Source: Cellulomonas palmilytica (GTDB lineage: Bacteria > Actinomycetota > Actinomycetes > Actinomycetales > Cellulomonadaceae). Taken from it: a stretch of DNA of 64,000 bases. Location of the stretch: NCBI RefSeq assembly GCF_021590045.1, contig NZ_CP062221.1:1612001-1676000 (forward strand), given 5' to 3'. This document shows positions 17,341-47,528 of the stretch, one piece after another. A model generated the notes under the pieces. It had not been told where the DNA came from and made no database searches. It worked only from the letters and a program-made list of their open reading frames with translations. Both the position numbers and the translations under genes were made by a program. The first letter of the stretch is position 1. Each line of letters starts with the position of its first letter.

Positions 17341-17346
17341 ACCCTA
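17341..17346 (-). promoter_or_regulatory. -10 hexamer TAGGGT of the DUF885 gene
   Basis: Minus-strand TAGGGT, 7 bases before the ATG at 17333. Confidence 0.5.
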
Positions 17347-17402
17347 CTCGCCGGTAGCCCCGGGCATGCGAGCGGAAACCCCCGCGCAGCAGGGGCGGCC
17401 GG

Positions 17403-17618: not shown

Positions 17619-18193
17619 TCGTCGTCCTCGTCGTCGTGCTCGTCGCCGAAGTCCACGTGGGAGCCGCGCGCGACGCCCCACTCCGCGACGTCGAAGCCCG
17701 CGTCGACGAGCGACTGCGTGAGGTCGCCCGCGGCGGACTCGACGATGTCGAGCGCCGAGTCGAGCGTGCGGTCGCCCGCACGCGGTGTGCGCACCACGAC
17801 GAGGCCCACGTGGAACGAGTCGGTCTCCTCCGCCTCGGCGAGCGCGTCGTCGTCAAAGTCGCCGTCGTCGTCCTGCCAGGTCATCCCGGTGAGGTCCGAG
17901 TGCATGCCCAGGCGCTCGTGGATGCGGTCGTAGAGCGCGGCGTTCAGGGTCCCGACACGCGCCTCGAGCGCGAGGATGCGCGGGTCCTCGTCCGCCTCGG
18001 TCGAGCCGAACTCGGCGCGCACGCCCACCGCGACGTCGACGTACTCGTGCAGCGCTGCGGCGAGCGCGTCGACCGCGGCGTGCAGGTCGGCCGGGTCCAC
18101 GTCCGTCAGCGGGGCGGGGCCGTGCGAGGGCGAGTCGTGGCCGTCGTCGTGCGCGTGCTCGTCGTGCGCGTGCTCGTCGTGCTCGTGCGTCAT
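17615..18193 (-). CDS. uncharacterised His-rich acidic protein inside the carboxylase operon
   Basis: 192-residue protein I do not recognise. Residues 1-20 carry seven histidines alternating with D and E, encoded by short DNA repeats near 18130-18190, and look metal-binding. The middle (residues 30-95) is predicted helical and alanine-rich. The C-terminus is very acidic (DFGDEHDDEDDE). It starts 15 bases after accD and overlaps accE by 4 bases, so it belongs to the accD-accE transcript. A role in carboxylase assembly or metal buffering is only inference. Confidence 0.75.
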   Translation of the reverse strand: MTHEHDEHAHDEHAHDDGHDSPSHGPAPLTDVDPADLHAAVDALAAALHEYVDVAVGVRAEFGSTEADEDPRILALEARVGTLNAALYDRIHERLGMHSDLTGMTWQDDDGDFDDDALAEAEETDSFHVGLVVVRTPRAGDRTLDSALDIVESAAGDLTQSLVDAGFDVAEWGVARGSHVDFGDEHDDEDDE

Positions 18194-18208
18194 CGTGAGG
18201 TCCAGTCT

Positions 18209-27540: not shown

Positions 27541-28131
27541 CTGGCTGCCTCGGTCCGCGTGCACGATCGCACCGGGTGCGGGCTGGCGGCGCCATATGGC
27601 CATCTGCAGGGCGTCGACGAGCAGCTCGGAGCGCATGTGGTCGGCGATCGACCAGCCCACGATCTTGCGGGTGAACACGTCCAGGACGGCAGCGCAGTAG
27701 ACCTTCCCGGTGCTCGTGGGGTGCTCGGTGCTGTCCGTGCACCACAACCGGTCCGGGCCATCGGCGCTGAACCGGCGCTGCACGAGGTCATCGTGCGGCG
27801 CCGGCAGCGGTCGCTGGCCACGGCGTTTGCGTCGGTGACACACCCCGGCCAGCCCCGCCGCGCGCATCAACCTGGCCACGCGCTTGCGCCCGCAGGAGAC
27901 CCCGAGCCCGAGGCGCAACTCCGCGTGAACTCTGGGGGCACCGTAGGTCGCGCGCGACCCGTGGTGGATCGCCACGATCGTCGCGGTCAAGGCCTGGTCG
28001 GCGACCGCGCGAGCACTCGGCGGCCGACGAATGGCGTCGTAGAGCCCGGAGCGGGAGATGCCGAGCACCCGGCAGGTCAGCGCGACGGGCACCCCGTCGG
28101 CCGCCAGCTCCTGGACCAGCCGGGCAGTCAT
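27541..28131 (-). pseudogene. IS3 transposase OrfB, N-terminal part
   Basis: Starts at an ATG that overlaps the orfA stop (ATGA) behind an A-rich CCCAAAATGA run suited to programmed frameshifting. Contains the HTH_21-like start, the catalytic D in LWCTDSTEH and D in VHADRGSQ. The frame is broken right after GSQ by IS30 and runs on into it to a stop at 27172. Confidence 0.85.
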
Positions 28132-28415
28132 TTTGGGAGGACGTTCTCCCGGGCGAAGAACGCCGAGACGCGCTTGAGGATCTCGACCTCCATCTCCAGC
28201 ACCCGGTTGCGGCGGCGCAGCTCGACCAGCTCACGGCGCTCGTCCGTGCTGATGCCTTCACGGCGGCCCGTATCGACGTCGCCCTGGGCCATCCACCGGC
28301 GCAGGCATGACTCGCTGATCCCCAGATCGGACGCGACCTTCCTGACGGGCTGCTGGCCGCTACGGGCCAGGTCGACCGCTCGACGCCGGAACTCCGGCGG
28401 CTTGGCTGCAGGCAC
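28128..28415 (-). CDS. IS3-family transposase OrfA
   Basis: 95-residue DNA-binding partner of OrfB. It has the HTH region FRRRAVDLARSGQQPVRKVASDLGISESCLRRW and a C-terminal leucine-zipper-like stretch ELVELRRRNRVLEMEVEILKR in order. GTG at 28415 is chosen for the AGAGGAG site upstream; an ATG 24 or 30 codons earlier is less likely. Without an intact OrfB it cannot transpose the element alone. Confidence 0.85.
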   Translation of the reverse strand: MPAAKPPEFRRRAVDLARSGQQPVRKVASDLGISESCLRRWMAQGDVDTGRREGISTDERRELVELRRRNRVLEMEVEILKRVSAFFARENVLPK

Positions 28416-28540
28416 AAGGACTCCTCTCGGAGATGACATCGTCACCTCAGGGCAGGTGTCCGGGGAAGCGGGTCAGGCTCCCCTGGCCGCCGGCGGGCTG
28501 ATCACATAGTCCCCACCCGAACGGCGAAGAGCCAAGCAAA

Positions 28541-28567
28541 GGTGTCCACGGAAGCGGGTCAGCCTCC
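28541..28567 (-). repeat. second copy of the IS3 right end
   Basis: Matches 24 of 27 bases of the IS3 terminal repeat at 28456-28482, same orientation, 85 bases further out. The spacer between is not transposase sequence. Likely a scar of a related element. Confidence 0.6.
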
Positions 28568-28618
28568 AGCCGTCAATCCACCGGGAGGGGCGTCATCCAC
28601 CAGCCGATGTCCCGGGAA

Positions 28619-29947
28619 TTAGCCCGGAACGACCGTGTACTGGGCGTTTGCGCCGTACGCCTTTTCGACATTGTAAATGCGCGTGTAGACAACCTTCCAC
28701 GGCATGTCAATGGTGGGTCTGCACTCACCGGTCAGGAGGCCGGCGGCCAGTACCGTCCCGTAGGGGTAGAACACAGGCCCGCCGGAGTCGCCGCCGGCGG
28801 CGGTGAAAGTCGCGGTACCGTACCCACACCACGTGCCGTCGTCGTAGCCGCATGTCTTGCCCGTCGTTGCGCCCTTCTTGCAGCGCAAGTCTCCAGTCCA
28901 AGTCGATCGCCACGGGCCATCAACCGAGTGAATCTCGTTCGACGAGACGTAGATCTTGCCGATGGCCGGAGCCACGGGGGAGGGCACAGAGAGGAATGCC
29001 CAGTCTTGGTCTGGGAGGTAGTTGGGTTCCCCCATGGCGGAACCACTCGCGTATGCGGGGAGGATGGTGCCGCTGCGTCGGATCGTGCCAGCATCCACGC
29101 AATGTGCAGCGGTTGTCGAGTATGTGGTACCTGTCGAGATCTTCTTCATCGCATACCCGCTCGTACAGTGCGTATAGCCGCCGACGTCAAGGAATACGCC
29201 TGAGGCGAGCGAGTGGCTTTTCACTTCAGGTTGCGCGGGGATCAGGACGACTGGACCTGCGACCACGTACCCGCCTGTCGCTAGCGCGGAGGTCATCGCC
29301 TTGGCGAGTTGGTCCACCTGACTCTCAGGCAGTTCGGCGGCCCGGGTCACGTTCGCAGCCAAGACGGTGGGGTCGGACCTGATCTGGTCCGGGTCGAGGT
29401 TGACCCACCACCGCTCTGCGATCGACGACCCGCTAATTGATCCGAGAGCCAGTTCTGTGAGGGCGCTCTCCACTCGGGTCTTGTACGCATGCGTGAATGG
29501 CAACGAGACAAACTCGTACTCAATGTCTGGCGCCAGATCCTTTATTGCTCTTTCCAGCGCGCTGGCATTGTCGCCAACTACGCCGATATATGCGATGGCG
29601 CGAAGCGGGTCAACGGCACCGCCGCCGAAGGCGTCGGGATGCTTCTCTGCAAGCAGGTCGAACGACTCGTACGCGGTGCGCGTGAAGGCGTCGCGATCAT
29701 ACCCCCAGAAGGGTGTTTTGTCGGGGAGGTGGCCGTCGTCGGCATTCTGCATCGCCACCGAGTACTGGGCAATGACTTCGCCAGCCTTCTCGCGTACCGG
29801 CTCGGTGAGTCTGTCGAACGTTTCTGGGTCGATCTCGTCCACGATCCGGACAGTGTCGTCTGCGGCCCGTACCGGCCCTCCGATAACTGACGCCCCGATC
29901 GCAATCGTCAGTCCCGCCAACGCGCTGATGCTCCTGAATCGTTGCAA
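28619..29947 (-). CDS. secreted trypsin-like serine protease
   Basis: 442-residue S1-family protease. A signal peptide (LQRFRSISALAGLTIAIG, cleavage near residue 28) and a pro-region of about 170 residues precede the protease domain. The triad is H282 in TAAHCV, D315 in DQDWAFL and S388 in GGDSGGPVF; CGYDDGTWCGYG and TGEC give disulfide cysteines, as in alpha-lytic-type enzymes. TTG at 29947 is preferred because GGAGGAGGAG precedes it; a TTG at 30004 would add 19 residues. Base use is less GC-biased than the core genes and transposon scars flank it, so acquisition by transfer is likely. Confidence 0.82.
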   Translation of the reverse strand: MQRFRSISALAGLTIAIGASVIGGPVRAADDTVRIVDEIDPETFDRLTEPVREKAGEVIAQYSVAMQNADDGHLPDKTPFWGYDRDAFTRTAYESFDLLAEKHPDAFGGGAVDPLRAIAYIGVVGDNASALERAIKDLAPDIEYEFVSLPFTHAYKTRVESALTELALGSISGSSIAERWWVNLDPDQIRSDPTVLAANVTRAAELPESQVDQLAKAMTSALATGGYVVAGPVVLIPAQPEVKSHSLASGVFLDVGGYTHCTSGYAMKKISTGTTYSTTAAHCVDAGTIRRSGTILPAYASGSAMGEPNYLPDQDWAFLSVPSPVAPAIGKIYVSSNEIHSVDGPWRSTWTGDLRCKKGATTGKTCGYDDGTWCGYGTATFTAAGGDSGGPVFYPYGTVLAAGLLTGECRPTIDMPWKVVYTRIYNVEKAYGANAQYTVVPG

Positions 29948-30081
29948 CGCTCCTCCTCCAGAAAAGTTGCCCAAAGGATGCCAGCGGCGAGAGTGCTGCA
30001 GCAAAAGTCCGGGGCTCTGACGTGGACGCCGTGGTCGTGACGGGTCAGGTCGCTGTGGTGCGTAGGGATTCCGGGGTCGGC

Positions 30082-30165
30082 TCAGGTGCGGGCGACCTCG
30101 GCGGGGGTGCGAGGCCAGTCCGGAGTGGGGCCTGTGGTGGTAGGTGTCGATGTACGAAGCGATCT
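30082..30165 (-). pseudogene. transposase C-terminal remnant (frameshifted)
   Basis: Minus-strand translation gives EIASYIDTYHHRPHSGL, then after a one-base shift RTPAEVART and a stop, the usual end of IS481/IS3-type integrases. Too decayed to name further. Confidence 0.55.
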
Positions 30166-30179
30166 CGTGATGTGAGTCC

Positions 30180-30356
30180 GAGCTGATCCATCACGAAGGC
30201 CCCTCGCGCGACCTGAACCAGGTCGAGGCCGCGACCGCGTCGTGGGTGCTGTGGTTCAACAGCGAGCGCACCCACACCGTGATCGACGACCTGACCCGGA
30301 TCGAGGCCGAACAGGTCGACTACTCTCGCAGCGAACCCCTCGAACGAGCGAGCTGA
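30180..30356 (+). pseudogene. IS3-type OrfB C-terminal remnant
   Basis: 59 codons reading ELIHHEGPSRDLNQVEAATA, SWVLWFNSERTHTVI and ending ERAS-stop, the typical last segment of IS3 OrfB. The 5' part is missing. Confidence 0.65.
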
Positions 30357-30384
30357 CACCACAAACCAGCCCTCCGGACACGCC

Positions 30385-30450
30385 GGCCAAGGCGACGGCC
30401 TTGAGGTTCTCGGCGGACCAGCGCGACAGGTCGGTGCCCTTCGACGAGGA
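30385..30450 (-). pseudogene. IS30 transposase fragment
   Basis: Minus-strand KGTDLSRWSAENLKAVALA aligns with KGTDLSRWPAEDLLAVQAA of the complete IS30 transposase here. Only about 20 codons remain. The following 30451-30640 holds nothing I recognise. Confidence 0.6.
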
Positions 30451-30648
30451 CCCCGTTGGCTCGTTGACACTTCCCGGAGCCGTCGGGCTTGGGGACGGTG
30501 GTCGCTCTGATCACCCGAGGAGGGTGATGAGCGATAAGCGCAAGTACTGGCAGTCGCGCCCGAGCAGGCGACCGAGGTCGTGCGACCCTCTGCTACGCCA
30601 GTGGTGACTCAACTTGCAGGCGGTTCATGGCGCTTGGGGAAGAGCGTC

Positions 30649-30676
30649 TGTAACAGTTCGACACGCCGGGCCCGTC
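30649..30676 (+). promoter_or_regulatory. ECF-type promoter upstream of the sigma factor gene
   Basis: TGTAACA (30649-30655), 17 bases, CGTC (30673-30676). This resembles known ECF promoters of the TGTCACA-N16-CGTC kind and lies 36 bases before the sigma factor ATG, suggesting autoregulation. Confidence 0.5.
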
Positions 30677-30711
30677 TATGTCTGTAGAACTAGCAGTGAG
30701 GAAGGGGCGTC

Positions 30712-31215
30712 ATGGCGGTCGAGCCGCTGGACTCGGTGGACGACATCGGCGGCTTTGTCGCGCGCTATCGACCCGCGATGCTTCGCCTGGCGCTGGGGCT
30801 CTGCCGCGACCTCGACACGGCTGAGGACGTGGTTCAGGAGACACTCGCCCGACTAGTTCCTCGGTGGTCTATGGTCTGCGCCGCCACTTACCCGTGGGCC
30901 TACGTCCGCCAGGCCACCGTGCGGGTGTTCCTTAGTTCGCGCGACGAGCGCACCGTATACGTGTCGGAACACGCCGACGTAGCGGACGGCCACGACGCGA
31001 TGGCGGGCGTCGACGACCTGGACGCCGCAGTGCGCCGGATCCGGTCACTGCCTGCCCGTAGCCGGGCGGTGCTCGCGCTGCGGTACATCGAAGAGCTTGA
31101 CGATCAGACGATCGCGGACGTGCTGGGGACGACACGCGCCGCGGTTCGCGTCGCTGCGCACCGCGCCCTTCGACAGCTCGCTGTCCAAACGGAGAGGCAC
31201 AGGGAGATCAAGTGA
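30712..31215 (+). CDS. ECF-family RNA polymerase sigma factor
   Basis: 167-residue group 4 sigma factor with regions 2 and 4 only. Region 2 includes RYRPAMLRLALGLCRD and AEDVVQETLARL; region 4 includes LPARSRAVLALRYIEELDDQTIADVLG and the recognition helix TRAAVRVAAHRAL. GAGGAAGG precedes ATG at 30712. Its TGA overlaps the GTG of the next gene by 4 bases, the usual link to a cognate regulator. It lies between transposon remnants, so it may be laterally acquired. Confidence 0.9.
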   Translation: MAVEPLDSVDDIGGFVARYRPAMLRLALGLCRDLDTAEDVVQETLARLVPRWSMVCAATYPWAYVRQATVRVFLSSRDERTVYVSEHADVADGHDAMAGVDDLDAAVRRIRSLPARSRAVLALRYIEELDDQTIADVLGTTRAAVRVAAHRALRQLAVQTERHREIK

Positions 31216-31829
31216 TCAACGAACGAGCGTTCGCCGACAAGTTTCGCGTGACGGTCCAGCGCGAGCTCGCGCAAGCCTTGCGGTGCGATGCGTGCTCGGA
31301 CTCTCGCGAGCATGTCGAAGTCCTGCCCGTGGTAACGCTTCCCCCAGGACGACAGCCGCGCCGCGCTTTGCTCATCGCGGGTGTCGCGGCGTCCGCGGCG
31401 CTGGCCGCTGCACTCGCCGGAGCAGTGTCGCACCAGGTTGGGAGGGAAGCTTCGACGAATCTTGCAGACACGACGAGCGTGGGCGGACAGGAACCCCGCG
31501 CCACAGCGCCGCCCAGCCCCCACAAGGTCGAGGCGGTTGTGTCCGAGGGAATCCGCACGTTCCTGGGACCGTCGCTGTACACACTGGCAAGTCGCGACGG
31601 ATGCCTGGTCGACGAGGCGCGAGGGTTCGTCCTTGCACTCGACACGAGCTGGCGCTGGGATGCGCAGACGGCGACGCTGACCTCCGTGGCCACGGGAAAG
31701 AGCTATGGCCTCGGTGACGACGTCGAGATGGCGGGCAACGGGTACGGACGGCTGACGATTCCGGAGGCATGCGCTCACGTCGATCTGCCGCTTCGCGGCG
31801 TCTGGGACCCAGCGGCAGGAGGCCGATAG
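31212..31829 (+). CDS. membrane protein coupled to the ECF sigma factor, putative anti-sigma factor
   Basis: 205-residue protein with a 50-residue cytoplasmic N-terminus containing a CDAC pair, one membrane segment (about residues 52-72, LLIAGVAASAALAAALAGAV) and an exported C-terminal domain of about 130 residues without recognised fold. The topology is that of anti-sigma factors, but the zinc-binding HxxxCxxC of the ZAS type is absent, leaving only C-x2-C. The GTGA overlap with the sigma gene supports a functional pair. Assignment is by context only. Confidence 0.7.
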   Translation: MINERAFADKFRVTVQRELAQALRCDACSDSREHVEVLPVVTLPPGRQPRRALLIAGVAASAALAAALAGAVSHQVGREASTNLADTTSVGGQEPRATAPPSPHKVEAVVSEGIRTFLGPSLYTLASRDGCLVDEARGFVLALDTSWRWDAQTATLTSVATGKSYGLGDDVEMAGNGYGRLTIPEACAHVDLPLRGVWDPAAGGR

Positions 31830-31870
31830 CCTGGTGAACTCATGGCTGCCCTGTGGCGTGACTTCTGGCC

Positions 31871-32060
31871 CAGGTAACGAAGATCGTGCTGGAGTCCGCG
31901 CTCGAGGGTGAAATCACCGCTCACCTGGGTTACGAGAAGCAAGAGAAGGACGCCTCGCGGGGAGGGTAACGCCCGTAACGGCACCCGGGCGGAGACAGTG
32001 CTGATCAAGGGTGGCCCGGTGCAGATCGAGGTCCCCAGGGACCGGGCTGGCACGTTCGAG
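31871..32060 (+). pseudogene. IS256-family transposase fragment (frameshifted)
   Basis: First reads VLESALEGEITAHLGYEK, then after a stop and shift NARNGTRAETVLIKGGPVQ and VPRDRAGTFE, the conserved N-terminal segment of IS256/mutator transposases. The rest is missing; 32061-32249 contains nothing else I can support. Confidence 0.7.
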
Positions 32061-37725: not shown

Positions 37726-39414
37726 TCAGTCCCGCAGCCGCGTGACCCACGACGACGCGAGCGACTCCTCCTCGAGGTCGAGCTCGCGCATCATGCGGCG
37801 CATCACGGCCTCGTCGAGATCGCCCGCGTCACGGTGCTCCATGAGCACCTCCCGCTGCACGGCGATGACCCGCCGGCGCATCGACTGGAGCTTGCGACCC
37901 GCGGCGGCGGACGTCGCGGCCTTGCCGCCGAGCAGCCCGAGCCCGCGTGCCGCCTCGGCCTGGACGCCGAGCTCGTCGGCGGTCGCGGGGTCGAGCATCA
38001 CGGCCGCGGCGGTCGCCCGGGCCCGCCAGCCCTTCGACAGCTTCTCGACGACCTCGGCGGCGCGCTCGTCGCCCATGCTGCTCGCGAGCCGCGGGCGCTG
38101 CTCCTCGAAGTACTCCTGCACCGCCTCGGCCGTCGCGACGCGCATCGCGGCCTCCTGCTTCGCGTCCTCGACCTCCTCCTGCGCGGACCCGATGCGCAGG
38201 CGCTGAATCAGCCACGGCAGGGTCGTCCCCTGCAGCAGCAGGGTGCCGAGCGCGACGGTGTACGCGGCGAGCTGGATCGTCGCGCGGTGCGCGAACGGCT
38301 CGCCGTCCATCGTCGCCGGGATCGCGGCGGCCGCCGCGAGCGTCACCACACCGCGCATGCCCGCCCACGAGACGACCGCGGACTCGCGCGACGTGAGCGC
38401 GTCGTCCTCGGGTCGGTGCGAGCCGGGCAGGCGCACGTTGTCGAACCACGCCGTCGAGAAGATGTACAGCGGACGCACGAGCATCGTCACGGCGAGCACG
38501 ACGAGCGAGACCGTCAGCCCGTGCCCGAACCCCTGGTCGGAGTCGACGACGTCACGGACGACCCACGGCAGCTGCACGCCGATCAGCGCGAACGTGAACG
38601 ACTCGAGCACGAGGTCGAGCGTCGACCAGATGGGCTCCTCGAACAGGCGCGTCGCGAACCCCGCGCGCGGGGACGTGTGGCCCAGGTACAGGCCCGCGGC
38701 GACGACCGCGAGCACCCCCGAGCCGTGCACGGCCTCCGCGCTCCAGTACGCCGCGAACGGCGTGAGGATCCCGATCGCGGACGCGACCACCGCGTCGTCG
38801 AGGTGCGTGCGCACCAGGTGCACGACGACCCCGAGCACGAGCCCCACGCCCACGCCCGCGACCACCGCGAGCGTGAACGTCCACAGCCCCGCGCCGAGCG
38901 CCCACGCGCCGCTCGCCACCCCGGCGAGCGCGACCTTGTAGAGCGTCAGGGACGTCGCGTCGTTGATGAGGCTCTCGCCCGACAGCAGCGTCATGACGCG
39001 CCGCGGCAGCCCGAGCCGCCGGCCGACCGCGGCGGCGGCGACGGCGTCCGGCGGCGCGACCACGGCGCCGAGCACGAGCGCCGCGGCGAACGGCACGTCG
39101 TCCAGCACGGTGAACACCGCGGCGACCGCGAGCGCCGTCACGATCACGAGCCCCACGCCGAGACGCGTGATCGAGTTCAGCGACGCACGGAAGTCCCGGT
39201 ACGACGACGAGAGGGCCGCGGAGTACAGCAGCGGGGGCAGCACGAACTCGAGCAGCAGCTCCGGGTTCACCTCGTAGCGCGGGACGCCCGGCACGAGCGA
39301 GACCAGCAGGGCGACGGCCACGACGACGAGCGGTGCGGGCCACCCGCGGCGGCGGCACACCGCCGCGACGAGGACGGCCGCAGCAGCCAGGGCGAAGACC
39401 TCGACGTGGTGCAC
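37726..39414 (-). CDS. Na+/H+ antiporter, CPA1/NhaP type
   Basis: 562-residue monovalent cation:proton antiporter. About twelve hydrophobic segments span residues 1-410, including the exchange motif GESLINDATSLTLYK with the ND pair, and APPDAVAAAAVGRRL. A cytosolic tail of about 150 residues is rich in A, E and R and probably helical, as in sodium/hydrogen exchangers. GTG at 39414. It lies upstream of adhE on the same strand, with a 230-base gap that holds the adhE control region, so co-transcription is possible but not needed. Confidence 0.9.
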   Translation of the reverse strand: MHHVEVFALAAAAVLVAAVCRRRGWPAPLVVVAVALLVSLVPGVPRYEVNPELLLEFVLPPLLYSAALSSSYRDFRASLNSITRLGVGLVIVTALAVAAVFTVLDDVPFAAALVLGAVVAPPDAVAAAAVGRRLGLPRRVMTLLSGESLINDATSLTLYKVALAGVASGAWALGAGLWTFTLAVVAGVGVGLVLGVVVHLVRTHLDDAVVASAIGILTPFAAYWSAEAVHGSGVLAVVAAGLYLGHTSPRAGFATRLFEEPIWSTLDLVLESFTFALIGVQLPWVVRDVVDSDQGFGHGLTVSLVVLAVTMLVRPLYIFSTAWFDNVRLPGSHRPEDDALTSRESAVVSWAGMRGVVTLAAAAAIPATMDGEPFAHRATIQLAAYTVALGTLLLQGTTLPWLIQRLRIGSAQEEVEDAKQEAAMRVATAEAVQEYFEEQRPRLASSMGDERAAEVVEKLSKGWRARATAAAVMLDPATADELGVQAEAARGLGLLGGKAATSAAAGRKLQSMRRRVIAVQREVLMEHRDAGDLDEAVMRRMMRELDLEEESLASSWVTRLRD

Positions 39415-39451
39415 GCGTCCTCCGCAGCTCGCCGGACGGGATGCTCAGACC

Positions 39452-42400
39452 CTAGTCGAGAAGCCCTGGCGGGCCCGTCCCGCCGTGCGCCTCGTCGTGC
39501 GCGAGCAGGCCCCACGGGACGGGCTCCTTGCCGGCCTCGTGGCACGCCCGCACGTACGCGCGGTGCAGCAGGTCGCGGTCCGTGCCCGGGACCCACGCGA
39601 CCGAGCGCCGGACCTCGAACTCCAGCGCGAACGCCGAGTCCGGGTCGGCCGCGAGGGCGTCGAGCGCGTGCCCGAGGTGCGCGACGACCTCGTCCTCTCC
39701 CGCGTTCGTCGCGGCGAGCAGCACCGCGAGCCGTGCGCTCACCCGCGCGGCGAGCGGCGGGTCGACGACGAGCTGCACGGCCTGCTCGGCCGCGCGTGTC
39801 GACGCCAGCGCGAGCTGCGGGGAGTCCGCCGCCTCGCGCATCGCGAGCCACAGGTTCACCTGCGCGCACGTGCTCGGGTCGGGGTGCTGGGCGGACTCGC
39901 GGAGCACGTCGAGCGCGGCCTCGGGGTCGCCCCGGTTGTCGTACGCCTCCGCCAGGGCCATCGCGGCGGTCGGGTACGGCGAGACGTCGTCGCGCGCGAG
40001 CACCTCGTGCAGGAGGCGGACGGTGCCGACGTCGCCCTCCGCGACCGCCTCGGCGAGCCGGGCCCGCTGCACGTCGTGCAGGGCGCGCAGCGCGTCGGGG
40101 CCGAAGGGCGACGCCGCGAGCCGGCGGTACCAGTCGGCGGCCTCGTCGAGCGACCCGCGCTCCCGCAGGCGTCGCGCGTGCACGGCGGTGAGCGCGACGA
40201 GCGCGCCGGTGTCGTCCTCGTACTCGTCGACGAGCCGCAGCTGCTCGGCATCGTCGCCCGGCGGGTCGACCTCGGCGTCGCGGACGAGCGCACGCGCGCG
40301 CTCGAGCGTCCGGGCGGCGTGCGCGGTCGCCGGGTCGGCACCGAGCAGGGCCGCGCTCTCGGTCCACAGGTCGTGCGCGTCCTCGAGCTCGCCGGGCCGG
40401 GTCGCGAGCCGCGGCATCTCGGCGGCGTAGGCGAGCGCCGCCTCGTCGTTGCCGCGCACGGCCTCGGCGACGACGAGGTGCGCACGCCGGTCCACGCGCT
40501 CGTGCGTCGCGAGCAGCCGCAGGTCGTCGTCCAGGCCGTCCACGCCGTCGAGGAGGAGTCGCGCGTTGAGCCGGTAGAGCGCCGCGTCGTCCGTCAGGCC
40601 CTCGCGGGCGGCGAGGCGCGCGAGGGCCTCGCGCGCGGCAGGCACGTCGTCCACGCCCGCGAGCGTGCGGCGCTGGTGCAACGACGCCCAGAGCGCGTCG
40701 ACGTACCAGCTCGTCTCGTCGGCGAACCAGGCCGTCTGCTGCACCGCGACGAGGTCGTGCTCGGCCCCGTCCAGGTCGTCGGTCTCGATGCGGCACCACG
40801 CACGCACCAGGCGCTCGCCGGGCGAGAGGTCGTCCAGCTCCGCGAGCGCCTCGAGCGCCTCGAGCGGCTCGTGCGAGCGCGTCAGGTCCTTCAGCCGCTC
40901 GAACCTGGCCTCGGCGTTGTCCGGACCGATCTCGAGCGCGCGTCTGCGCGCCTCGCGGGCGGCGACCGTCAGGCCGACGCCGTACAGCAGGCGCGCCGCG
41001 GTGGCCCAGTAGCTCGGCTCGCTCGGCTCGAGCAGGAGCGCCTTCTCCGCGCGGACGAGCGCGTCCCACACCTCGTGCGGCACGCGCGGGACCGCGTACG
41101 GGTCGGTGTCGGCCGGGACCGGCGACGTGGCCGCGAGGTCCTCGGCGATGTTCGCGCCGCTCCAGTAGACCCACGACTCCTCGGGGCCCGTGGGAGGGTT
41201 CGTCGGCACCGTCGCCACCCAGACCCGCTCGGCCTCGTACGCCTCGCCCCGGCCCGGGGGCATGCCGCCGAACCAACCGCGCAGCCGCAGCGCCTCCGCG
41301 AGGTACCACCCGGTGGTCGGCGGCGGGGGATCGAGCTCGATGAGCTCCTCCAGCAGCCTGATGGCCTCCTCGACGGCGGTCGGCTCGCCGAGCCCACGCC
41401 ACACGCCGCGCTTGGCCACCTCCAGGGTCGCCTCGCACCACAGCTGGGACCCCCGGCGCCCGACCTGCTCGAGGGCCCGCGCGCGCACGCGGTGCACCAC
41501 CTTGTCCGGGAACGACTCCGGGCCGCGCACCCCTTGCGCGAACGCCTCCGCGCACGCGGCCAGGGCCTCCTCGGGCAGCCCCGCCGCGAGACGAGCGGAC
41601 GCGAGCTCACGCCAGTACAGCCCGCTCTCGCGACGCATCGAGACGAGCTCGGTGTACGCGAGGCGGGTCACCGGCCACCGCGCGAACGCCTGCGCGAACC
41701 GCCGGGCGGCGGTCTCCAGGTCGCCCTCGACCTCCGCGACGAGCCCCAGCGCGAGCGTGCAGTCGCCCGTCGGGTCCGCGTCGTCGTCCCCCGCGTCGAC
41801 GAGCGCGTGCCGCCGTGCCTCGTCGACCTCGCCGCGCCACAGGAGCGTGGCGGCGAGCTCGGCGCGCATGCGCGGGGTCGGGCGCACCCGCACGCGGTCC
41901 TCGAGCACCTGCTCCGCCTCGCCGTTGCGGTTCAGCCGCATGAACGCGAACGCCCGCAGGACCGCGAGGTCCTCCTCCGCCTCGCCGCCGCCCCGGCCGC
42001 GCCGCGACCACCCGTACGCGCGCTTCTGCAGGTCCGCGGCGCGATGCTCGACCTCGGCCGCCGCGTCGTGCTCGATCGCCCGCAGGAGCGCGTCGAGCGC
42101 GGCGACCGGGTCGTCGGGCGACGGGTCGCGCGGCTCGCCCTCGCGCTGGGCCTCGCGCAGACGGTCGACGAGCAGCTCGGCGGGTGCCGGCCCCACGGTG
42201 ACCAGGGTCTGCAGGACCTCCTCGACGACGGGCCGCGCCGCCCGGCGGGGGTCCTTGCGCAGCGTCGCGTCGAGGCGCGCGGCCGTGGCCGTGAGTCCCT
42301 CGGCGGACCAGCGCTCGCGGGCGTCGGCGAGCCGGCCCGCGGCGTCGTACCGCTCGAGGAACGTGGCCAGGTCGTGCGTGAGCTGCTCCGCGAGCTGGGC

Positions 42401-42535
42401 GAGCCCCTGGCGGGCGTCGTCGTCGTCGTCGGACGCCAGCGCGTCCAGCGGCTGTCCCGGGTCGCCGGCGACCCGGGACAGGGCGTCGCGGGCGGCCGCC
42501 AGCGCGCCCCGGAGGCGGTCCGGCTCGGTGCTCAT
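39452..42535 (-). CDS. large TPR-like helical protein of the trypco-protease operon
   Basis: 1027-residue, mostly helical, A/L/E/R-rich protein without enzyme motifs I can name. Repeated helix pairs with TPR-like spacing recur throughout (for example AEQVLEDRVRVRPTPRMRAEL, ARRFAQAFARWPVTRLAYTE, AALDVLRESAQHPDPSTCA). No signal peptide or membrane segment. ATG at 42535 overlaps the stop of the protease gene (ATGA), so production is coupled. In conflict systems such TPR partners act as sensors or scaffolds; here that is inference. It is the last gene of the three-gene operon. Confidence 0.8.
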   Translation of the reverse strand: MSTEPDRLRGALAAARDALSRVAGDPGQPLDALASDDDDDARQGLAQLAEQLTHDLATFLERYDAAGRLADARERWSAEGLTATAARLDATLRKDPRRAARPVVEEVLQTLVTVGPAPAELLVDRLREAQREGEPRDPSPDDPVAALDALLRAIEHDAAAEVEHRAADLQKRAYGWSRRGRGGGEAEEDLAVLRAFAFMRLNRNGEAEQVLEDRVRVRPTPRMRAELAATLLWRGEVDEARRHALVDAGDDDADPTGDCTLALGLVAEVEGDLETAARRFAQAFARWPVTRLAYTELVSMRRESGLYWRELASARLAAGLPEEALAACAEAFAQGVRGPESFPDKVVHRVRARALEQVGRRGSQLWCEATLEVAKRGVWRGLGEPTAVEEAIRLLEELIELDPPPPTTGWYLAEALRLRGWFGGMPPGRGEAYEAERVWVATVPTNPPTGPEESWVYWSGANIAEDLAATSPVPADTDPYAVPRVPHEVWDALVRAEKALLLEPSEPSYWATAARLLYGVGLTVAAREARRRALEIGPDNAEARFERLKDLTRSHEPLEALEALAELDDLSPGERLVRAWCRIETDDLDGAEHDLVAVQQTAWFADETSWYVDALWASLHQRRTLAGVDDVPAAREALARLAAREGLTDDAALYRLNARLLLDGVDGLDDDLRLLATHERVDRRAHLVVAEAVRGNDEAALAYAAEMPRLATRPGELEDAHDLWTESAALLGADPATAHAARTLERARALVRDAEVDPPGDDAEQLRLVDEYEDDTGALVALTAVHARRLRERGSLDEAADWYRRLAASPFGPDALRALHDVQRARLAEAVAEGDVGTVRLLHEVLARDDVSPYPTAAMALAEAYDNRGDPEAALDVLRESAQHPDPSTCAQVNLWLAMREAADSPQLALASTRAAEQAVQLVVDPPLAARVSARLAVLLAATNAGEDEVVAHLGHALDALAADPDSAFALEFEVRRSVAWVPGTDRDLLHRAYVRACHEAGKEPVPWGLLAHDEAHGGTGPPGLLD

Positions 42536-44331
42536 CGCCCACCGTCCCGATCGGCGCGGCCCTCGCCGGGGCGGCGCAGGACGATCGGGCCCGGACGGGC
42601 CGTCACCAGCACCGGGAACGACCAGGGCCGTCGGGCCTGCTCGAGCCGCCGCCGGCCGTGCTGCACCGCGACCTGCACGGACGTGCCCCGCGCGAGCTGC
42701 CCGTACAGCTCGGTGAAGAACGCGCGCCCCGCCTCCGGGTCCACGGGCAGCGGGAACGCGAGCACCGCGCTCACACCCGCCTCCAGGAGGTCCTGCGCGA
42801 AGACCGTGAGGTCGGCCGGCAGCTCGGACTCCGCGACGCGCACGGGCTGGAGCACGACGAGCCGAGGCGCGTCGGCCCCTGCGCGGTCCCGCACGAACGC
42901 CGCGAGCTCGGGCGAGTCGAAGCTCACCGCGGTCGACCACGGCCGGTCGTCCAGGTCGACGACGTCGCGCATGTTGTCCACCCGTGCCCGCAGCACCAGG
43001 TGCAGCACGTGCGGTCCGCTGCGCACCACGTCCGCCAGCGCGGTCGTCGTCGCCGTGCTCGTCTCGTCCAGCGGCGTCGCGACGACCTGCCCGAGCACGC
43101 GCGCGGCGGTGGCCGCGGCCTCGGTCGAGCGCGACACCCGCTGCTGCTGGTCGCCCTCGTCGTCCGGCGACCGGAACACGCTGATGCGGCAGTCCGCCGG
43201 CGGCGGGGCGATGTCGCCGGGCTCGGTGTCGAGCGTGCGCACGAGCGTCGCGCGCTCGTGCGTGCCGAGCGAGACGCCGGGCCCGCCGTCCGCGGCGGGC
43301 AGCTGCAGGCACTCCCACGGCAGGTAGAGCAGGTCCTCGTCGACGCCCGGGCCGAAGTGCAGCTCGATGTCGAGCGACTGCCCGCCCGCGGCGAGCATGG
43401 CGCGCAGCCGCTCCTGCGCGGTGGTCGACCACAGGGTCTTGGCCAGCGCGCCTCCGACGACCGGGTACTGCAGGTTGTGCGAGACGCGGTTGGTGGCCTT
43501 GAGCATGCGGAACAGGCGCGCCACGTCGAGCCGCAGCACGTTGAGGTCGACCTGGGTCTGGTCGTGCCACGCGTCCTGCGCGCTGGGCGACGAGATCGTC
43601 ACGGTCCAGCGCTCGTCCTGCTGCCCGACGTCGACGAGGAGGCGGCGGCCCGTCGTGGCGGGCGCCGCGTCGAGGCCCGCGAGCATCTCGCGCTGCACCT
43701 CGGTGAGGCACGCGTCCCACCGCGGGTCGAGCCGCCGTGCGTCGAGGTTGTCGACCCGCAGCCGCTCGAACGCCCCGAACGCCGCGTCGATCGGCACGGC
43801 GAGGCCGCCGAGGTCGGTGTCCACGTCCCGTGAGCGCCGCACGACCGCGACGACCGTGCCGGTCTTCAGGTCGAGCACGGGCGCGCCGCTGAACCCCGAC
43901 TGCACCTGCCCCGCCTTGATGCGCAGGAGGCGCGGCGGACCGTTCTCCGGGCCCTCGTAGTGGTACGTGCCCGACGTGCCGCCCGGCTTGGTGGGCGGGA
44001 AGCCGTAGACGTACAGCTTGTCGTCGATGCGCGGCACGCCGCCCAGCGAGACGACGGGCTGGCGGCTCGACGTGTCGAGCGTGAGCAACGCGAGGTCGTT
44101 CGTCTCGTCGACCGAGGGACGCGTGACGGGCCGCGCCGTCACGCCGCGGCCCGCGTCGAGGACGACCTCGATGAGGTCGTGTCCCGCACTGCGGTCCAGG
44201 GCGCGCTTCACGACGTGGTGGCACGTCAGCACCTTGCCGGGGGCGACCACGAACCCCGTCCCCGACAGCTCGCCGCCGACGTCGATGCGCACCGTCGCCT
44301 TGGCGAGCAGGTCCGCCAGGTCGTCGGTCAC
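42532..44331 (-). CDS. trypsin-like protease fused to a CHAT-like (pseudo-caspase) domain
   Basis: 599-residue cytoplasmic protein. Residues 1-190 are a trypsin-like protease with catalytic H39 (LTCHHVV), D79 (NDLALL) and S148 (SGFSGAP). Residues 290-580 match the CHAT layout: LPWECL at 337-342, HVLHLVLRARVD at 441-452 and LVVLQPVRV at 491-499. At the places where active CHAT proteases have GHG and the catalytic Cys, this protein has R448 and V497. So the CHAT half looks inactive and may bind a partner while the trypsin half cuts. GTG at 44331 overlaps the trypco gene by 4 bases. Confidence 0.83.
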   Translation of the reverse strand: MTDDLADLLAKATVRIDVGGELSGTGFVVAPGKVLTCHHVVKRALDRSAGHDLIEVVLDAGRGVTARPVTRPSVDETNDLALLTLDTSSRQPVVSLGGVPRIDDKLYVYGFPPTKPGGTSGTYHYEGPENGPPRLLRIKAGQVQSGFSGAPVLDLKTGTVVAVVRRSRDVDTDLGGLAVPIDAAFGAFERLRVDNLDARRLDPRWDACLTEVQREMLAGLDAAPATTGRRLLVDVGQQDERWTVTISSPSAQDAWHDQTQVDLNVLRLDVARLFRMLKATNRVSHNLQYPVVGGALAKTLWSTTAQERLRAMLAAGGQSLDIELHFGPGVDEDLLYLPWECLQLPAADGGPGVSLGTHERATLVRTLDTEPGDIAPPPADCRISVFRSPDDEGDQQQRVSRSTEAAATAARVLGQVVATPLDETSTATTTALADVVRSGPHVLHLVLRARVDNMRDVVDLDDRPWSTAVSFDSPELAAFVRDRAGADAPRLVVLQPVRVAESELPADLTVFAQDLLEAGVSAVLAFPLPVDPEAGRAFFTELYGQLARGTSVQVAVQHGRRRLEQARRPWSFPVLVTARPGPIVLRRPGEGRADRDGGR

Positions 44332-44714
44332 GACCCGCCTCCCTCCGGCGGGGGCGGGTCGCCCTCCGGCGGGGGCGGGTCGACATCCGGCGTCGCGCCG
44401 TCGCGCGGGGACGCCTTCCACAGCAGCCGCACGCCGAACGTCGCGGTCGCGCCGCCCTTGACGAGCAGCGACGTGAGCCGCCCGGCCTCGACCGCGACGT
44501 CGACGCCGAACGTCACCTCGGCCTCGTCGGGCCGGGCGCGCCGCAGCGCGTCCGTCATCGACCGGGAGATCCGGGCGACCGACTCCGCGAGGTCGTCGAA
44601 CGACAGGACGTCGCTCAGCGCGGAGACGTCCTCCTCACGGTCGTCCTGCCGGGAGATCTCGACCATGACGCGTGGCGCGCCCGGCTCCAGCTCGGTGCTG
44701 ACGATCCGCGTCAT
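44328..44714 (-). CDS. trypsin co-occurring domain (trypco, CU044_2847-type) protein
   Basis: 128-residue protein. The helical middle SFDDLAESVARISRSMTDALR is followed by DEAEVTFGVDVAVEAGR and GATATFGVRLLWK, the signature of trypco1/CU044_2847 proteins, which are found next to trypsin-like proteases in predicted conflict systems (established knowledge). The C-terminal tail has a duplicated DPPPPEG unit. First gene of the operon; its stop overlaps the protease GTG. Probably a sensor, adaptor or protease regulator, inferred from context. Confidence 0.82.
   Translation of the reverse strand: MTRIVSTELEPGAPRVMVEISRQDDREEDVSALSDVLSFDDLAESVARISRSMTDALRRARPDEAEVTFGVDVAVEAGRLTSLLVKGGATATFGVRLLWKASPRDGATPDVDPPPPEGDPPPPEGGGS
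44341..44382. repeat. tandem 21-base repeat in the trypco gene
   Basis: Two perfect copies (44341-44361 and 44362-44382) encode the duplicated proline-rich DPPPPEG unit near the C-terminus. Confidence 0.8.
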
Positions 44715-44919
44715 CGCTCCGCCCCCGGGAGACGAGAGGAAAAGGGACTTCTCGGACACGGTAACGCCGCGCGCGCGGTGTGGCACGGGTGAGAAGCCTC
44801 GGCGACGGGCGCCGCGGCCGCGGCCCGATGGGCGATACGCCCGATCTCGCGGCCGGTCGCGAGGCTAGGTTCGCTCACCTGGGCTCGGGCAGGGCGAGCA
44901 CCGAACGAGGGGGAGTCGG
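44715..44919. promoter_or_regulatory. divergent promoter region of trypco operon and entA-like gene
   Basis: 205 bases separate the two starts. AGGT-N6-ACCT (44867-44880) resembles an iron box but is one base short. No clear hexamers for the trypco promoter could be fixed. Confidence 0.3.
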
Positions 44920-45648
44920 ATGACGCAGGGGACGCGCGGGGTCGCGCTGGTGACGGGGGCCGCCGGGGGCATCGGGTCGGCGGTCGTGGGCGTGCTGCGG
45001 GCGCGCGGGTACACGGTCGTCGGGACCGACCGGACGGCGCACGACGACGTGCGCGCGCTCGACATCACGGACGGCGACGCCGTCGCGGCGTTCGTCGCAC
45101 GGCTCGAGAGCGAGGACGGCCCGGTCGAGGTGCTCGTCAACGCCGCCGGCCTGCTGCGGACGGGTCCCGCGCTGGACGACGACGACGACCTCGTGGCGCT
45201 GGTCGCGGTGAACGTGCTCGGCACCGCGACGGTCACCCGCGCCGTGGTGCGGCGCATGGTCGAGCGCGGCCGCGGATCCGTGGTGACGGTCGCGTCCAAC
45301 GCGGCGCGCGTGCCCCGCACGGGCATGGCCGCGTACGGCGCGTCGAAGGCGGCGCTCACGGCGTGGACCAAGTCGCTCGGGCTCGAGGTCGCCGAGCACG
45401 GTGTGCGGTGCAACGTCGTGCACCCGGGCACCACGCGCACGCGGATGCTCGACGGGCTCGGGGACACCGAGCAGGTCGTGGCGGCGGCGATCAACGGGAC
45501 GCCGGAGGCCTACAAGGTGGGGATCCCGCTGCGCCGGGTCGCGGAGCCGGACGACGTCGCGGCCGCGGTGGCGTTCCTGGCGTCCGACGACGCGCGCCAC
45601 CTCACGATGCACGAGCTCTACGTCGACGGGGGCGCGTCGCTGCGCTGA
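44920..45648 (+). CDS. entA: 2,3-dihydro-2,3-dihydroxybenzoate dehydrogenase-like SDR
   Basis: 242-residue short-chain dehydrogenase. NAD motif TGAAGGIG, catalytic S126, Y139 and K143 (MAAYGASKAAL). RCNVVHPG, YKVGIPL and HLTMHELYVDGGASL parallel the EntA/DhbA sequence closely, so oxidation of 2,3-dihydro-2,3-dihydroxybenzoate in catechol siderophore synthesis is the best guess. GGGGGAG precedes ATG at 44920. The other dihydroxybenzoate genes (entB, C, E) are not in the window; the convergent neighbour is a phosphopantetheinyl transferase, which supports the link. Confidence 0.78.
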   Translation: MTQGTRGVALVTGAAGGIGSAVVGVLRARGYTVVGTDRTAHDDVRALDITDGDAVAAFVARLESEDGPVEVLVNAAGLLRTGPALDDDDDLVALVAVNVLGTATVTRAVVRRMVERGRGSVVTVASNAARVPRTGMAAYGASKAALTAWTKSLGLEVAEHGVRCNVVHPGTTRTRMLDGLGDTEQVVAAAINGTPEAYKVGIPLRRVAEPDDVAAAVAFLASDDARHLTMHELYVDGGASLR

Positions 45649-45676
45649 CTCCTGCCCGCGCGGCCGTCGCGCCGGG

Positions 45677-46303
45677 TCAGCGGGGGAGCGCGAGCGCGGT
45701 GACCAGCAGGTCCTCGCCGACGGCCCAGCGGCCGCGCAGCTCGTCGACCCCGAGCCCCGGCTTCAGCAGCCGGACGACGAACGCGTCGTCCTCGAGGTGC
45801 ACGCGCACGTCCTCGAACCCGAGCCACGCACCCGTGATGGGCGACCAGAGCTTGTACACCGACTCCTTCGCGCTGAACAGCACGCGGTCGGCGCACAGCG
45901 CGGGGTCGAGCTCGGCCAGCGGAGCGCGCTCGGACTCGTCGAGCACGAGGGCCGCGACCTCGGGCGGCAGCGGGGCGCGGGGCTCGGCGTCGATGCCCAG
46001 CCCCGCCCACGCGTCGGCGCGCGCGACCGCTGCGGCGCGGTAGCCCGCGCAGTGCGTCATGCTCCCGACGACGCCCGCCGGCCACACCGGCGCACGGTTC
46101 GGCGCGCTCGGCACCGCGAGCGTCGTGACGGCCAGACGGCTCAGCGCCTCGCGGGCGCACCCGCGCACGGCCGCGTACTCCGCCCGACGAGCGGGCACGG
46201 CCTGCGCGACCGCGCGCTCCTCGTCGGCGAACAGCGGGACGGTCACCGGCGGGCCGTGCCGCTCGGTGACCTCGACGCCCGGGGGCAGCAGGTCGGCGAG
46301 CAC
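45677..46303 (-). CDS. 4'-phosphopantetheinyl transferase, EntD/Sfp type
   Basis: 208-residue transferase that loads the phosphopantetheine arm of CoA onto carrier proteins of siderophore or other non-ribosomal synthetases. GIDAEPR holds the Mg2+ aspartate and FSAKESVYKLW the catalytic E and K. An N-terminal region VLADLLPPGVEV is like other actinobacterial EntD proteins, so GTG at 46303 is chosen; a longer frame upstream is low-complexity. Convergent with the entA-like gene, 28 bases apart. Confidence 0.85.
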   Translation of the reverse strand: MLADLLPPGVEVTERHGPPVTVPLFADEERAVAQAVPARRAEYAAVRGCAREALSRLAVTTLAVPSAPNRAPVWPAGVVGSMTHCAGYRAAAVARADAWAGLGIDAEPRAPLPPEVAALVLDESERAPLAELDPALCADRVLFSAKESVYKLWSPITGAWLGFEDVRVHLEDDAFVVRLLKPGLGVDELRGRWAVGEDLLVTALALPR

Positions 46304-46423
46304 GGGGTCACTGTGCCCGACATGTCTGTGCCTGCGCCGAGTCGTCCACGCCCACGCGCGTCCGCTCGGCTCCGTCGTCGCTGCGGCGCAGCCGCCGGAC
46401 GGCCGCCACGAACCCTCCCTGTC

Positions 46424-46490
46424 GAGTGCGCACGTTCCTGCGTGAGTGCGCACGTCCTGCGTCCGCACTCAGGCACGACCGTGCGCACTC
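46424..46490. repeat. short repeat cluster GAGTGCGCACG
   Basis: Two direct copies (46424-46434, 46444-46454) and one inverted copy (46480-46490) lie upstream of the transferase gene, with CCGCACTC as a further half copy. 46304-46559 has no gene; the last 70 bases are a G-rich tract. Confidence 0.6.
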
Positions 46491-46559
46491 GGCGGTGTGG
46501 GGGCGGGTGCGGTGGGACGGGGGGAGGACGGGAGGGGGATGGAGGGGGACGGGAGGGGC

Positions 46560-46596
46560 GACGAAGGCCCGTGACCGAGGGTCACGGGCCTTCGTC
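46560..46596 (-). terminator. terminator of tRNA-Arg
   Basis: Perfect 17-base arms (46560-46576 and 46580-46596) with a 3-base loop, 5 bases beyond the tRNA 3' end. Confidence 0.8.
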
Positions 46597-46601
46597 TCGT
46601 G

Positions 46602-46674
46602 TGCGCCCGAAAGGATTCGAACCTTCGACCTTCTGCTCCGGAGGCAGACGCTCTATCCGCTGAGCTACGGGCGC
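46602..46674 (-). tRNA. tRNA-Arg (anticodon CCG)
   Basis: 73 bases on the minus strand. Acceptor stem GCGCCCG/CGGGCGC, D-arm with AGCTCAGCGGATAGAGC, anticodon loop CTCCGGA giving CCG (reads CGG), T-arm GGTTCGAATCC. The 3' CCA is not encoded. Confidence 0.97.
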
Positions 46675-46758
46675 GAGATGCGCGAACGCATCGGCCAGCG
46701 AGCCTACCAGTCCTCCACCCCCACCCCGACCCCGCGATCGCTCCGGCTCCGCCGAGCG

Positions 46759-46822
46759 ATACCCGGAGCAACCACGGGGTCGGGGGACTGCCTCTGCGTG
46801 AACCCGTGGTTGCTCCGGGTAT
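46759..46822. repeat. 20-base perfect inverted repeat with 24-base loop
   Basis: Arms 46759-46778 and 46803-46822 are exact complements and contain CCCGGAGCAACCACGGG. It lies between tRNA-Arg and the GntR gene end. The block 46741-46769 resembles 13882-13910. Either a terminator for the GntR gene or a dispersed palindromic element. Confidence 0.75.
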
Positions 46823-46874
46823 GGCTCGCGAGTGCCGGAGGAAAGGTGGGGTCGTCCGTGGGGAGCGGGGTGGG

Positions 46875-47528
46875 TCAGGACTCGCCGAGGAGGGCGGAGA
46901 GGTACGTCGTCGTCTCCGCGACGGCCTTGGCCGCGTCGCCCGCGACGATCGCCTCGACGAGCGCGTCGTGCGCGGTCTGCCCGTGGTAGTCGGTGACGAA
47001 GTTGAACCGGATGTTCTCGCCGATCGCGTCGATGAGGTTCTCGTACAGCGACGCGAGCACGGGGTTCGCCGCGGCGCGCACGATCGTCGTGTGCAGCGCG
47101 AGGTCGGTCGCGACCATCGCGTCGAGGTCGCCCGACACGTACGCGGCGGCGCGCTCGTCGCGGCGGTCGAGCAGCGTGCTCGCGTCGAGCGCGGTGCGCC
47201 GGCGTGCGGCCAGGCGCGCCGCCTCGATCTCGAGCGCGCGGCGGACCTCGACGACGTCGCGCTGGCGCGCCTCGGCGATCTGGCGGCCCATGGTCGCGGC
47301 GAGCTCGGACGACGAGAGCACGTACGTGCCCGAGCCCTGGCGGCGCTCGAGCAGGCCGGCGTGCACGAGCGACTGCACGGCCTCGCGGACCGTGTTGCGA
47401 CCGACGCCGAGGAGCTCGACGAGCTGCGGCTCGGGCGGGATCCGGGAGCCGACGGGCCACTCGCCGCTCGTGATGCGCGCGCGTAGCTCCTGTACGGTCG
47501 AATCGATCAGACCGGTCCGTCGCGTCAT
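46875..47528 (-). CDS. FadR/GntR-family transcriptional regulator
   Basis: 217-residue regulator. N-terminal winged helix with [27 protein letters not shown] and the wing RRQGSGTYV. The C-terminal helical effector domain of FCD type has [12 protein letters not shown] and [17 protein letters not shown], where the histidine probably binds a metal. ATG at 47528 with GGAG upstream. It is divergent from the MFS gene at 47647 and most likely controls it and itself from the 118-base gap. Confidence 0.9.

Follow-up and report, generated by a model that had tools for sequence, protein, structure and literature searches.

Here, we describe a three-gene cassette of Cellulomonas palmilytica that lies in a 64,000-nucleotide stretch of its genome (contig NZ_CP062221.1, positions 1,612,001 to 1,676,000), referred to as the window, whose own numbering is used throughout. 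The cassette consists of three minus-strand open reading frames (ORFs), each overlapping its neighbor by 4 bp. The first (44714-44328) encodes a 128-residue Trypco1/CU044_2847-family protein, the second (44331-42532, GTG start) a 599-residue trypsin/HtrA-like serine protease fused to a predicted catalytically dead CHAT domain, i.e., a pseudo-caspase, and the third (42535-39452) a 1027-residue helical-repeat protein of the tetratricopeptide repeat (TPR) type. The overlap between the Trypco1 and protease genes is GTGA (44328-44331) and that between the protease and TPR genes is ATGA (42532-42535), both on the minus strand. A first-pass annotation of this DNA had proposed that the three genes form one operon; the ORFs and junctions are as proposed, and the genes overlap in the same way in three relatives, such that both junctions are 4-bp overlaps in all four loci (8/8 junctions; GTGA three times, ATGA five times).

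The domain assignments of the first-pass annotation also stood in profile searches. The first protein matched the Trypco1 model PF19493 (6.1e-14; 52.8 bits against a cut-off of 24.6) and the CU044_2847 model NF041216 (1.3e-14; 54.6 bits against a cut-off of 23), is 63-74% identical to its orthologues in three other Cellulomonas genomes, and is encoded directly next to a trypsin-like protease, the pairing after which the family is named. The third protein gave only matches below the cut-offs with single Pfam TPR models; however, a profile of four orthologues aligned with designed TPR chains at 4.1e-33, identifying it as TPR-like as had been claimed. None of the three proteins is likely to span a membrane (highest 19-residue hydropathy, 1.48). 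The cassette is smaller than 5.3 kb and encodes three apparently soluble proteins. A scan for promoters and terminators gave nothing exceeding shuffled sequences and is uninformative at this G+C content.

A trypsin domain with a complete triad, fused to a predicted pseudo-caspase

Protein homologue searches, in which the 7999-8000 candidates sharing most words were scored, gave at least 24, at least one and at least two hits. Residues of the protease were counted in an alignment of 24 protease rows together with five comparison CHAT proteins; from the 24 hits, P0004 (the window protein itself), P0025 (15% coverage) and P0027 (26%) were omitted, and the proteases of loci L008 and L009 were added. 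The rows are related and do not represent independent events: P0006 is the L007 protein, P0012 is a fragment of the L008 protein, and P0008 (97.7%) as well as P0007 and P0009 (about 89-90%) are near-duplicates of the L009 or L008 protein.

The trypsin-like domain spans residues about 5-190 (Trypsin_2, 2.6e-18, residues 24-163), and its nearest solved sequences are HhoA/HtrA proteases. The His-Asp-Ser triad (H39, D79 and S148 in the window protein) is complete in 23 of the 24 family rows, and the remaining row is truncated at its start. The residue six positions before the catalytic Ser is Gln. Because the corresponding position in trypsin is Asp189 (trypsin numbering), specificity for Lys/Arg is not expected. 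One metagenome member of the family, P0024 (838 aa), is a TIR-trypsin-CHAT fusion with the TIR domain at the front.

The first-pass annotation had described the second half of the protein as a CHAT-like fold. This part of the claim was confirmed, as the fusion is real and residues 295-567 match CHAT (PF12770, 6.4e-12; domain residues about 295-580; nearest solved sequence, 8tl0). The domain is, however, no working protease as judged from its catalytic columns, in which the His is replaced by R448 and the Cys by V497. Among the 23 rows covering the His column, none has His (8 Arg, 10 Tyr, 4 Phe, 1 Val), while the Cys is kept in 13 and lost in 10 (8 Val, 1 Ser, 1 Tyr), including all four Cellulomonas copies; the columns of P0013, which lacks a Pfam CHAT match at 0.1, rest on the alignment. 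By comparison, both residues are present in the G018 CHAT1, G109, G241 and G501 proteins, and neither is present in G018 CHAT2. The CHAT domain is, therefore, a genuine member of its Pfam family but a predicted pseudo-enzyme, and a role as a second active protease is ruled out by the lost His and Cys. Because these residues are lost, the trypsin domain is the only predicted source of catalysis in the protein. The His is missing throughout the covered rows but the Cys in only part of them, which suggests that in this family the His was lost before the Cys.

The three proteins diverge at different rates. Averaged over all pairs of the four cassettes, identity reaches 67% in Trypco1, 57.5% in the protease (67% in its trypsin domain and 52% in its pseudo-CHAT) and 42% in the TPR protein, where it ranges from 28 to 53% by stretch and is lowest in residues 101-200 (28%). 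As a yardstick, the Na/H exchanger encoded in the window is 78% identical to its counterpart in G025 and 74% to that in G059; no G010 match was found at the cut-off. Because the TPR protein evolves fastest, it is a natural candidate for the sensor. We considered whether the TPR gene of G059 is disrupted by one TGA; the called reading frame stays open for 1025 aa and the match ends at its stop codon, so the gene is no pseudogene.

Distribution and insertion site

Full-length homologues of the protease were found in 4 of 148 genomes, including that of C. palmilytica, while G018 gave CHAT-only matches. A complete TPR gene is present in 4 of 81 Cellulomonas genomes, and a fifth, G041, holds a remnant. 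The protease and TPR genes occur in the same four genomes (C. palmilytica, G010, G059 and G025), and the gene order is identical. To compare their surroundings, genes in the 18-19 kb regions that hold the other three copies were called with a codon-usage caller trained on eight window genes and compared all-versus-all with those in window positions 30000-56000; the only genes shared among the regions were the three cassette genes. The survey of three-gene synteny for which the first-pass annotation had called, thus, recovered the same order and overlaps in three other Cellulomonas genomes and, because of this conserved synteny, a chance explanation of the predicted arrangement is untenable.

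In the window, the cassette occupies a variable interval (39415-46874) delimited, based on Pfam gene families and the corresponding sites of relatives, by a Na/H-exchanger gene (37726-39414) and a GntR-family gene (46875-47528). We read this site in five relatives. The cassette is absent from it in G076, G026, G021 and G025, and in G076 only 117 bp separate the exchanger gene from a phosphopantetheinyl transferase gene. In G041, the exchanger of which is 92% identical to that in the window, a deletion scar remains, in which the first 105 residues of Trypco1 (93% identical) are fused in frame to residues 942-1020 of the TPR protein (74%). Because of this gain, loss and decay at one site, together with the different flanks elsewhere, the predicted unit is self-contained, portable, accessory and of a mobile type. 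The interval also varies in its other content: in the window it holds an SDR gene beside the cassette, in G041 an ABC-ATPase ORF beside the scar, and the gene content differs again in G021 and G025. Just 3 of 81 genomes of the genus have a match to the SDR gene that passes 1e-60.

A nine-row protease profile searched against genome contigs gave 11 loci, of which C. composti and C. terrae matched at near full length and nine in the trypsin region only. A 22-row profile searched against 396 genomes of the phylum matched at full length in the C. palmilytica genome only, with CHAT-only or trypsin-only matches in 7 other genomes, and a profile of 7 distant rows matched in none of 394 genomes of the class except that of C. 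palmilytica. A plasmid- or phage-borne cassette was considered and, in searches that did not extend to viral and metagenome contigs, rejected, as no plasmid record (2 partial matches) or phage record (1 partial match) contains the protease at 80% coverage. For the TPR protein, no such record was found among plasmids, and the distant homologue P0021 gave 4 partial plasmid matches.

An NTPase-free relative of Trypco1-trypsin systems

The first-pass annotation had noted the lack of a nucleoside triphosphatase (NTPase), toxin or nuclease in the operon, and the domain searches agree. The three proteins have no Walker A motif, and a Pfam scan found no vWA, AAA, NTPase, toxin or nuclease domain in them. 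Neither a MoxR ATPase gene nor a vWA gene belongs to the operon, as the four loci have only three genes in common, all of which lack a Walker A motif. VMAP-C (PF20028) was not detected in the window protease (E up to 1) or in its three orthologues (E up to 0.01), while the same library detected it at 1.5e-37 and 1.5e-33 in two Trypco1-linked trypsin proteins. A trypsin-VMAP query found nothing in the C. palmilytica genome at 1e-3, in a search run without a positive control.

When 394 genomes of the class were sampled, 68 of them had Trypco1 domains (E up to 1e-6), yet only two papers that use the term trypco were found in the open-licence literature, and we know of no functional test of these domains. 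We surveyed 36 loci hand-picked from the match list so as to span scores and families; Trypco1 was found again in 35. A trypsin-like domain is encoded within 6 kb on the same strand in 24 of the 35, and for 23 of these 24 a P-loop motif was found in the same or a nearby frame (21 with a strict motif, plus L083 and L086, for which a looser motif was used; none in L115). Trypsin together with CHAT was found in none of the 35. Among trypsin-linked Trypco1 loci, the window family is, thus, predicted to be an NTPase-free exception. In one surveyed locus, L043 (G201; 8799-11518), Trypco1 is followed by a trypsin protein (Trypsin_2, 1.2e-19) with a P-loop recognized by eye and a TPR match below the cut-off, such that the usual parts are apparently united in one chain. 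In one of the 35 loci (G109), Trypco1 is accompanied by an intact CHAT without trypsin: in L040 (G109; 8880-11193), as in L121 (G100; 2059-4472), the Trypco1 gene lies directly before a CHAT gene with intact motifs and without trypsin, and the G100 pair is also joined by a 4-bp overlap.

Kinship trees place the cassette relative to these loci. In a tree of 41 Trypco1 proteins (excluding L081, in which the local model did not find Trypco1 again), the four Cellulomonas copies form one clade (support 97/99) that sits in a 98/98 group with six loci encoding trypsin and a separate P-loop protein and with the trypsin-P-loop locus L043. Labels in the tree came from motifs and a reading of gene order, and six of nine loci labeled MoxR were then checked. 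The P-loop gene matches AAA_5 in 6/6 of the grouped loci, VMAP-C is present on the protease in both of the two tested (L106 and L114), and vWA was not matched in the sole candidate protein tested (L106:7668-11150). Because of the AAA_5 and VMAP-C matches, the six loci classify as VMAP-type systems in the sense in which Kaur et al. 2020 (PMC7159879) describe them. The tree of trypsin domains, from which P0011, L009 and L100 were dropped by a length filter, has the window family adjoining loci of this kind, at lower support (86/92) and with a bootstrap that had not settled. Descent of the cassette from the Trypco1-intact-CHAT operons of G109 and G100 was considered and is not supported, given the position of their Trypco1s outside the 98/98 group.

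Discussion

Here, we identify a Trypco1-protease-TPR cassette as a portable genetic unit with a trypsin domain that keeps its catalytic triad, a dead caspase fold and no recognizable NTPase. We regard it as an evenly balanced proposition that this cassette is a soluble, portable and self-contained proteolytic switch of the biological-conflict (anti-invader) type, and the idea that the dead caspase fold and the fast-evolving TPR partner stand in place of an NTPase core has, in our view, about the same even standing. We infer a role in defense together with the following switch mechanism. The fast-evolving TPR protein would be the sensor arm and dock on the dead CHAT domain, which would serve as a scaffold or an allosteric gate. 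Trypco1, presumably made first and translationally coupled, would restrain the trypsin domain or tether it to the assembly. Upon sensing, the contact would be altered and the trypsin domain would become active and cleave a host or invader protein, causing growth arrest or cell death. Such a switch would need no ATP. Counted in favor of this reading are the conserved and patchily distributed gene set, the complete trypsin triad beside the degenerate CHAT, the missing Walker A motif, the Trypco1 and trypsin trees, the fast divergence of the TPR protein, the TIR-trypsin-CHAT fusion P0024, and a parallel operon of G018 (L010, see below) in which a dead CHAT is likewise accompanied by a TPR protein. 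A more specific proposal, which we make only tentatively, is that the pseudo-caspase fused to the live trypsin domain replaces VMAP-C and the AAA ATPase in an NTPase-free immune protease switch that a separate TPR sensor flips directly; the cassette might then be a minimal bacterial analogue of pseudo-caspase-gated proteases.

Comparison with known systems helps to place the cassette. Like the vWA-MoxR-VMAP ternary systems, as described in PMC7159879, it has the Trypco1 gene directly before a trypsin-like protease gene; moreover, its Trypco1 groups with six such loci and the trypsin domains are close. By contrast, it has neither a P-loop protein nor VMAP-C, its protease carries a dead CHAT, and its third gene encodes a TPR protein. 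Because the MoxR/vWA and VMAP-C features are missing, we class the cassette with the Trypco1-trypsin conflict systems and place it outside the VMAP ternary systems. Trypsin-like proteases have been described to activate nucleases and to act as immune switches in Hachiman and AVAST (PMC12799240). In the nuclease-protease pairs of AVAST type 1, Hachiman and Lamassu, as presented there, a trypsin-like domain is likewise fused to another domain and a gene lies directly upstream; however, in the cassette this upstream gene encodes Trypco1 rather than an MBL-type nuclease, and there is no STAND NTPase. PADLOC matched the cassette to LmuA (9.5e-11) and Avs1b (5.4e-10) in the trypsin region only. In the CARD-NLR-like LypABC system, for which trypsin activity is reported to be required (PMC13236601), trypsin-like proteases also have a TPR-bearing partner; yet, in the same account, an AAA+ ATPase precedes the TPRs of LypB and LypA carries an ATPase domain, while the cassette has no P-loop and has a pseudo-CHAT.

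Csx29, the ATP-independent protease of the type III-E CRISPR system (Craspase), combines, like the cassette, TPRs with a caspase-fold region that includes a pseudo-caspase part. As described in PMC10028731, the signal is passed on by a TPR activation region to CHAT2, the active caspase domain, and contacts with Cas7-11 are made by the NTD, TPR and pseudo-caspase (CHAT1) domains. By analogy, Csx29 supports TPR-driven activation and a pseudo-caspase as a docking surface. In the cassette, by contrast, the TPR protein is separate, the sole CHAT is dead and proteolysis would fall to a serine protease; the four loci do not share a fourth gene, although no search aimed at Cas7-11 was made.

Several observations weigh against a conflict-type switch. 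First, the analogy to Csx29 is incomplete: in the relay as described, the signal bypasses the pseudo-caspase, and the precedent, therefore, would not cover gating by a dead domain. Second, Trypco1 is not restricted to trypsin partners as judged from gene neighborhoods, because it also pairs with intact CHATs and because neither trypsin nor CHAT is encoded nearby in 10 of the 35 surveyed loci; thus, Trypco1 alone is no proof of a protease system, and the Trypco1s beside intact CHATs (G109 and G100) fall outside the 98/98 group. Third, the operon contains no effector gene and suggests no evident substrate, and we infer both the TPR-CHAT docking and the role of Trypco1 from sequence. Fourth, no clear defense island was seen around the cassette. 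Finally, the whole gene set was found in Cellulomonas alone, and the distant homologues are metagenome proteins known as proteins only.

Some of these observations bear on an alternative in which the cassette is involved in house-keeping or developmental signaling, i.e., encodes a cytoplasmic protease of the HtrA kind that serves quality control or regulation together with a TPR adaptor, and has no link to invaders. In the window, the cassette is flanked by ordinary genes of metabolism, transport and regulation (Pfam), no defense island is visible, and the nearest solved relatives of the trypsin domain are HhoA and HtrA proteases, all of which fits this idea. We nevertheless consider it unlikely: a gene set that is present in 4 of 81 congeners, has flanks that differ from genome to genome and shows a scar at the window site is unlike a house-keeping gene, and the kinship of Trypco1 to VMAP-type systems and the TIR fusion in the protease family also speak against it.

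The G041 scar lends itself to a second explanation, in which the trypsin-CHAT protein is a toxin for which Trypco1 is the dedicated inhibitor and the TPR protein acts either as a chaperone or as a second regulator, with the module spreading or persisting through addiction or a phage-triggered loss of Trypco1. G041 lost the protease and most of the TPR gene but kept Trypco1 residues 1-105 at 93% identity; the portability of the cassette and the position of the Trypco1 gene, first and overlapping the protease gene, agree with such a module. However, the scar may be simple decay, a TPR partner of about 1000 aa in 4/4 loci exceeds the needs of such a pair, and Trypco1, which also pairs with intact CHATs (G109 and G100) and occurs in trypsin-NTPase loci, is no inhibitor peculiar to this protease. 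Altogether, a toxin-antitoxin-like module appears improbable.

A third alternative stems from a locus in the same genus, L010 (G018; 8215-17133), which encodes an S8 subtilase, an intact CHAT, a CHAT without His and Cys, a TPR protein of 1279 aa that matches FHIPEP (FlhA-like) at its C-terminus, and a protein of 494 aa for which the FHIPEP match stays below the cut-off; the locus may be an undescribed protease system. Like the cassette, the G018 operon has a CHAT lacking both residues followed by a TPR protein, beside a serine protease; unlike the cassette, it has a subtilase instead of trypsin, a separate intact CHAT and an FHIPEP domain, and no Trypco1 or trypsin was found in 19 kb around it. 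The pseudo-CHAT of G018 matched two other genomes among 148, in which the matched CHATs have intact motifs. The TPR part of the G018 protein aligned with the cassette TPR protein over 420 columns (hhalign 96.6%, E 6e-10), a score that repeat proteins inflate. A split Csx29/separase-like protease, in which pseudo-CHAT and TPR in trans are the conserved sensor-gate unit and the catalytic module is swapped (intact CHAT and S8 in G018, trypsin here), would account for the order of the G018 operon and for the TPR alignment and would recall Csx29, which, as described, unites TPR, pseudo-caspase and active caspase (PMC10028731); but unrelated repeat proteins easily come out as similar, no second operon of this kind was seen and the G018 operon has no Trypco1 or trypsin within those 19 kb, and the Trypco1 and trypsin trees link the catalytic half of the cassette to VMAP-type systems, making this the least probable of the explanations considered here.

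Returning to a proteolytic switch of the conflict type, the cassette would be of interest in two respects. It reduces a Trypco1 system to three proteins, such that the roles of Trypco1, the pseudo-caspase and the TPR partner become directly dissectable. Moreover, if the cassette protects, an energy-dependent switch thought to be central to conflict systems would be replaceable by a dead enzyme domain. No description of a Trypco1-trypsin-CHAT-TPR operon was found among the listed titles and abstract openings of matches in the open-licence literature, a body that leaves out bioRxiv preprints and most subscription papers.

Other observations at the cassette loci

PADLOC, run on 10 of the 36 called flank proteins of the three other loci, identified one defense protein, a GmrSD-type restriction enzyme encoded at L009 (G025; 16944-18977), about 6.4 kb from the G025 cassette. 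At L007 (C. composti), a BTAD-AAA regulator gene (1825-5121) is convergent with the TPR gene, 19 bp away. The C. palmilytica genome (3.83 Mb, single contig) encodes a second CHAT protein outside the window (G000:C1:3633448-3634092), which, as judged by eye, is long and repeat-rich and has His-Gly and Ser-Cys motifs. Within the window, positions 28001-32000 have a G+C content of 0.64-0.67 compared to 0.70-0.78 elsewhere and may be a foreign segment.

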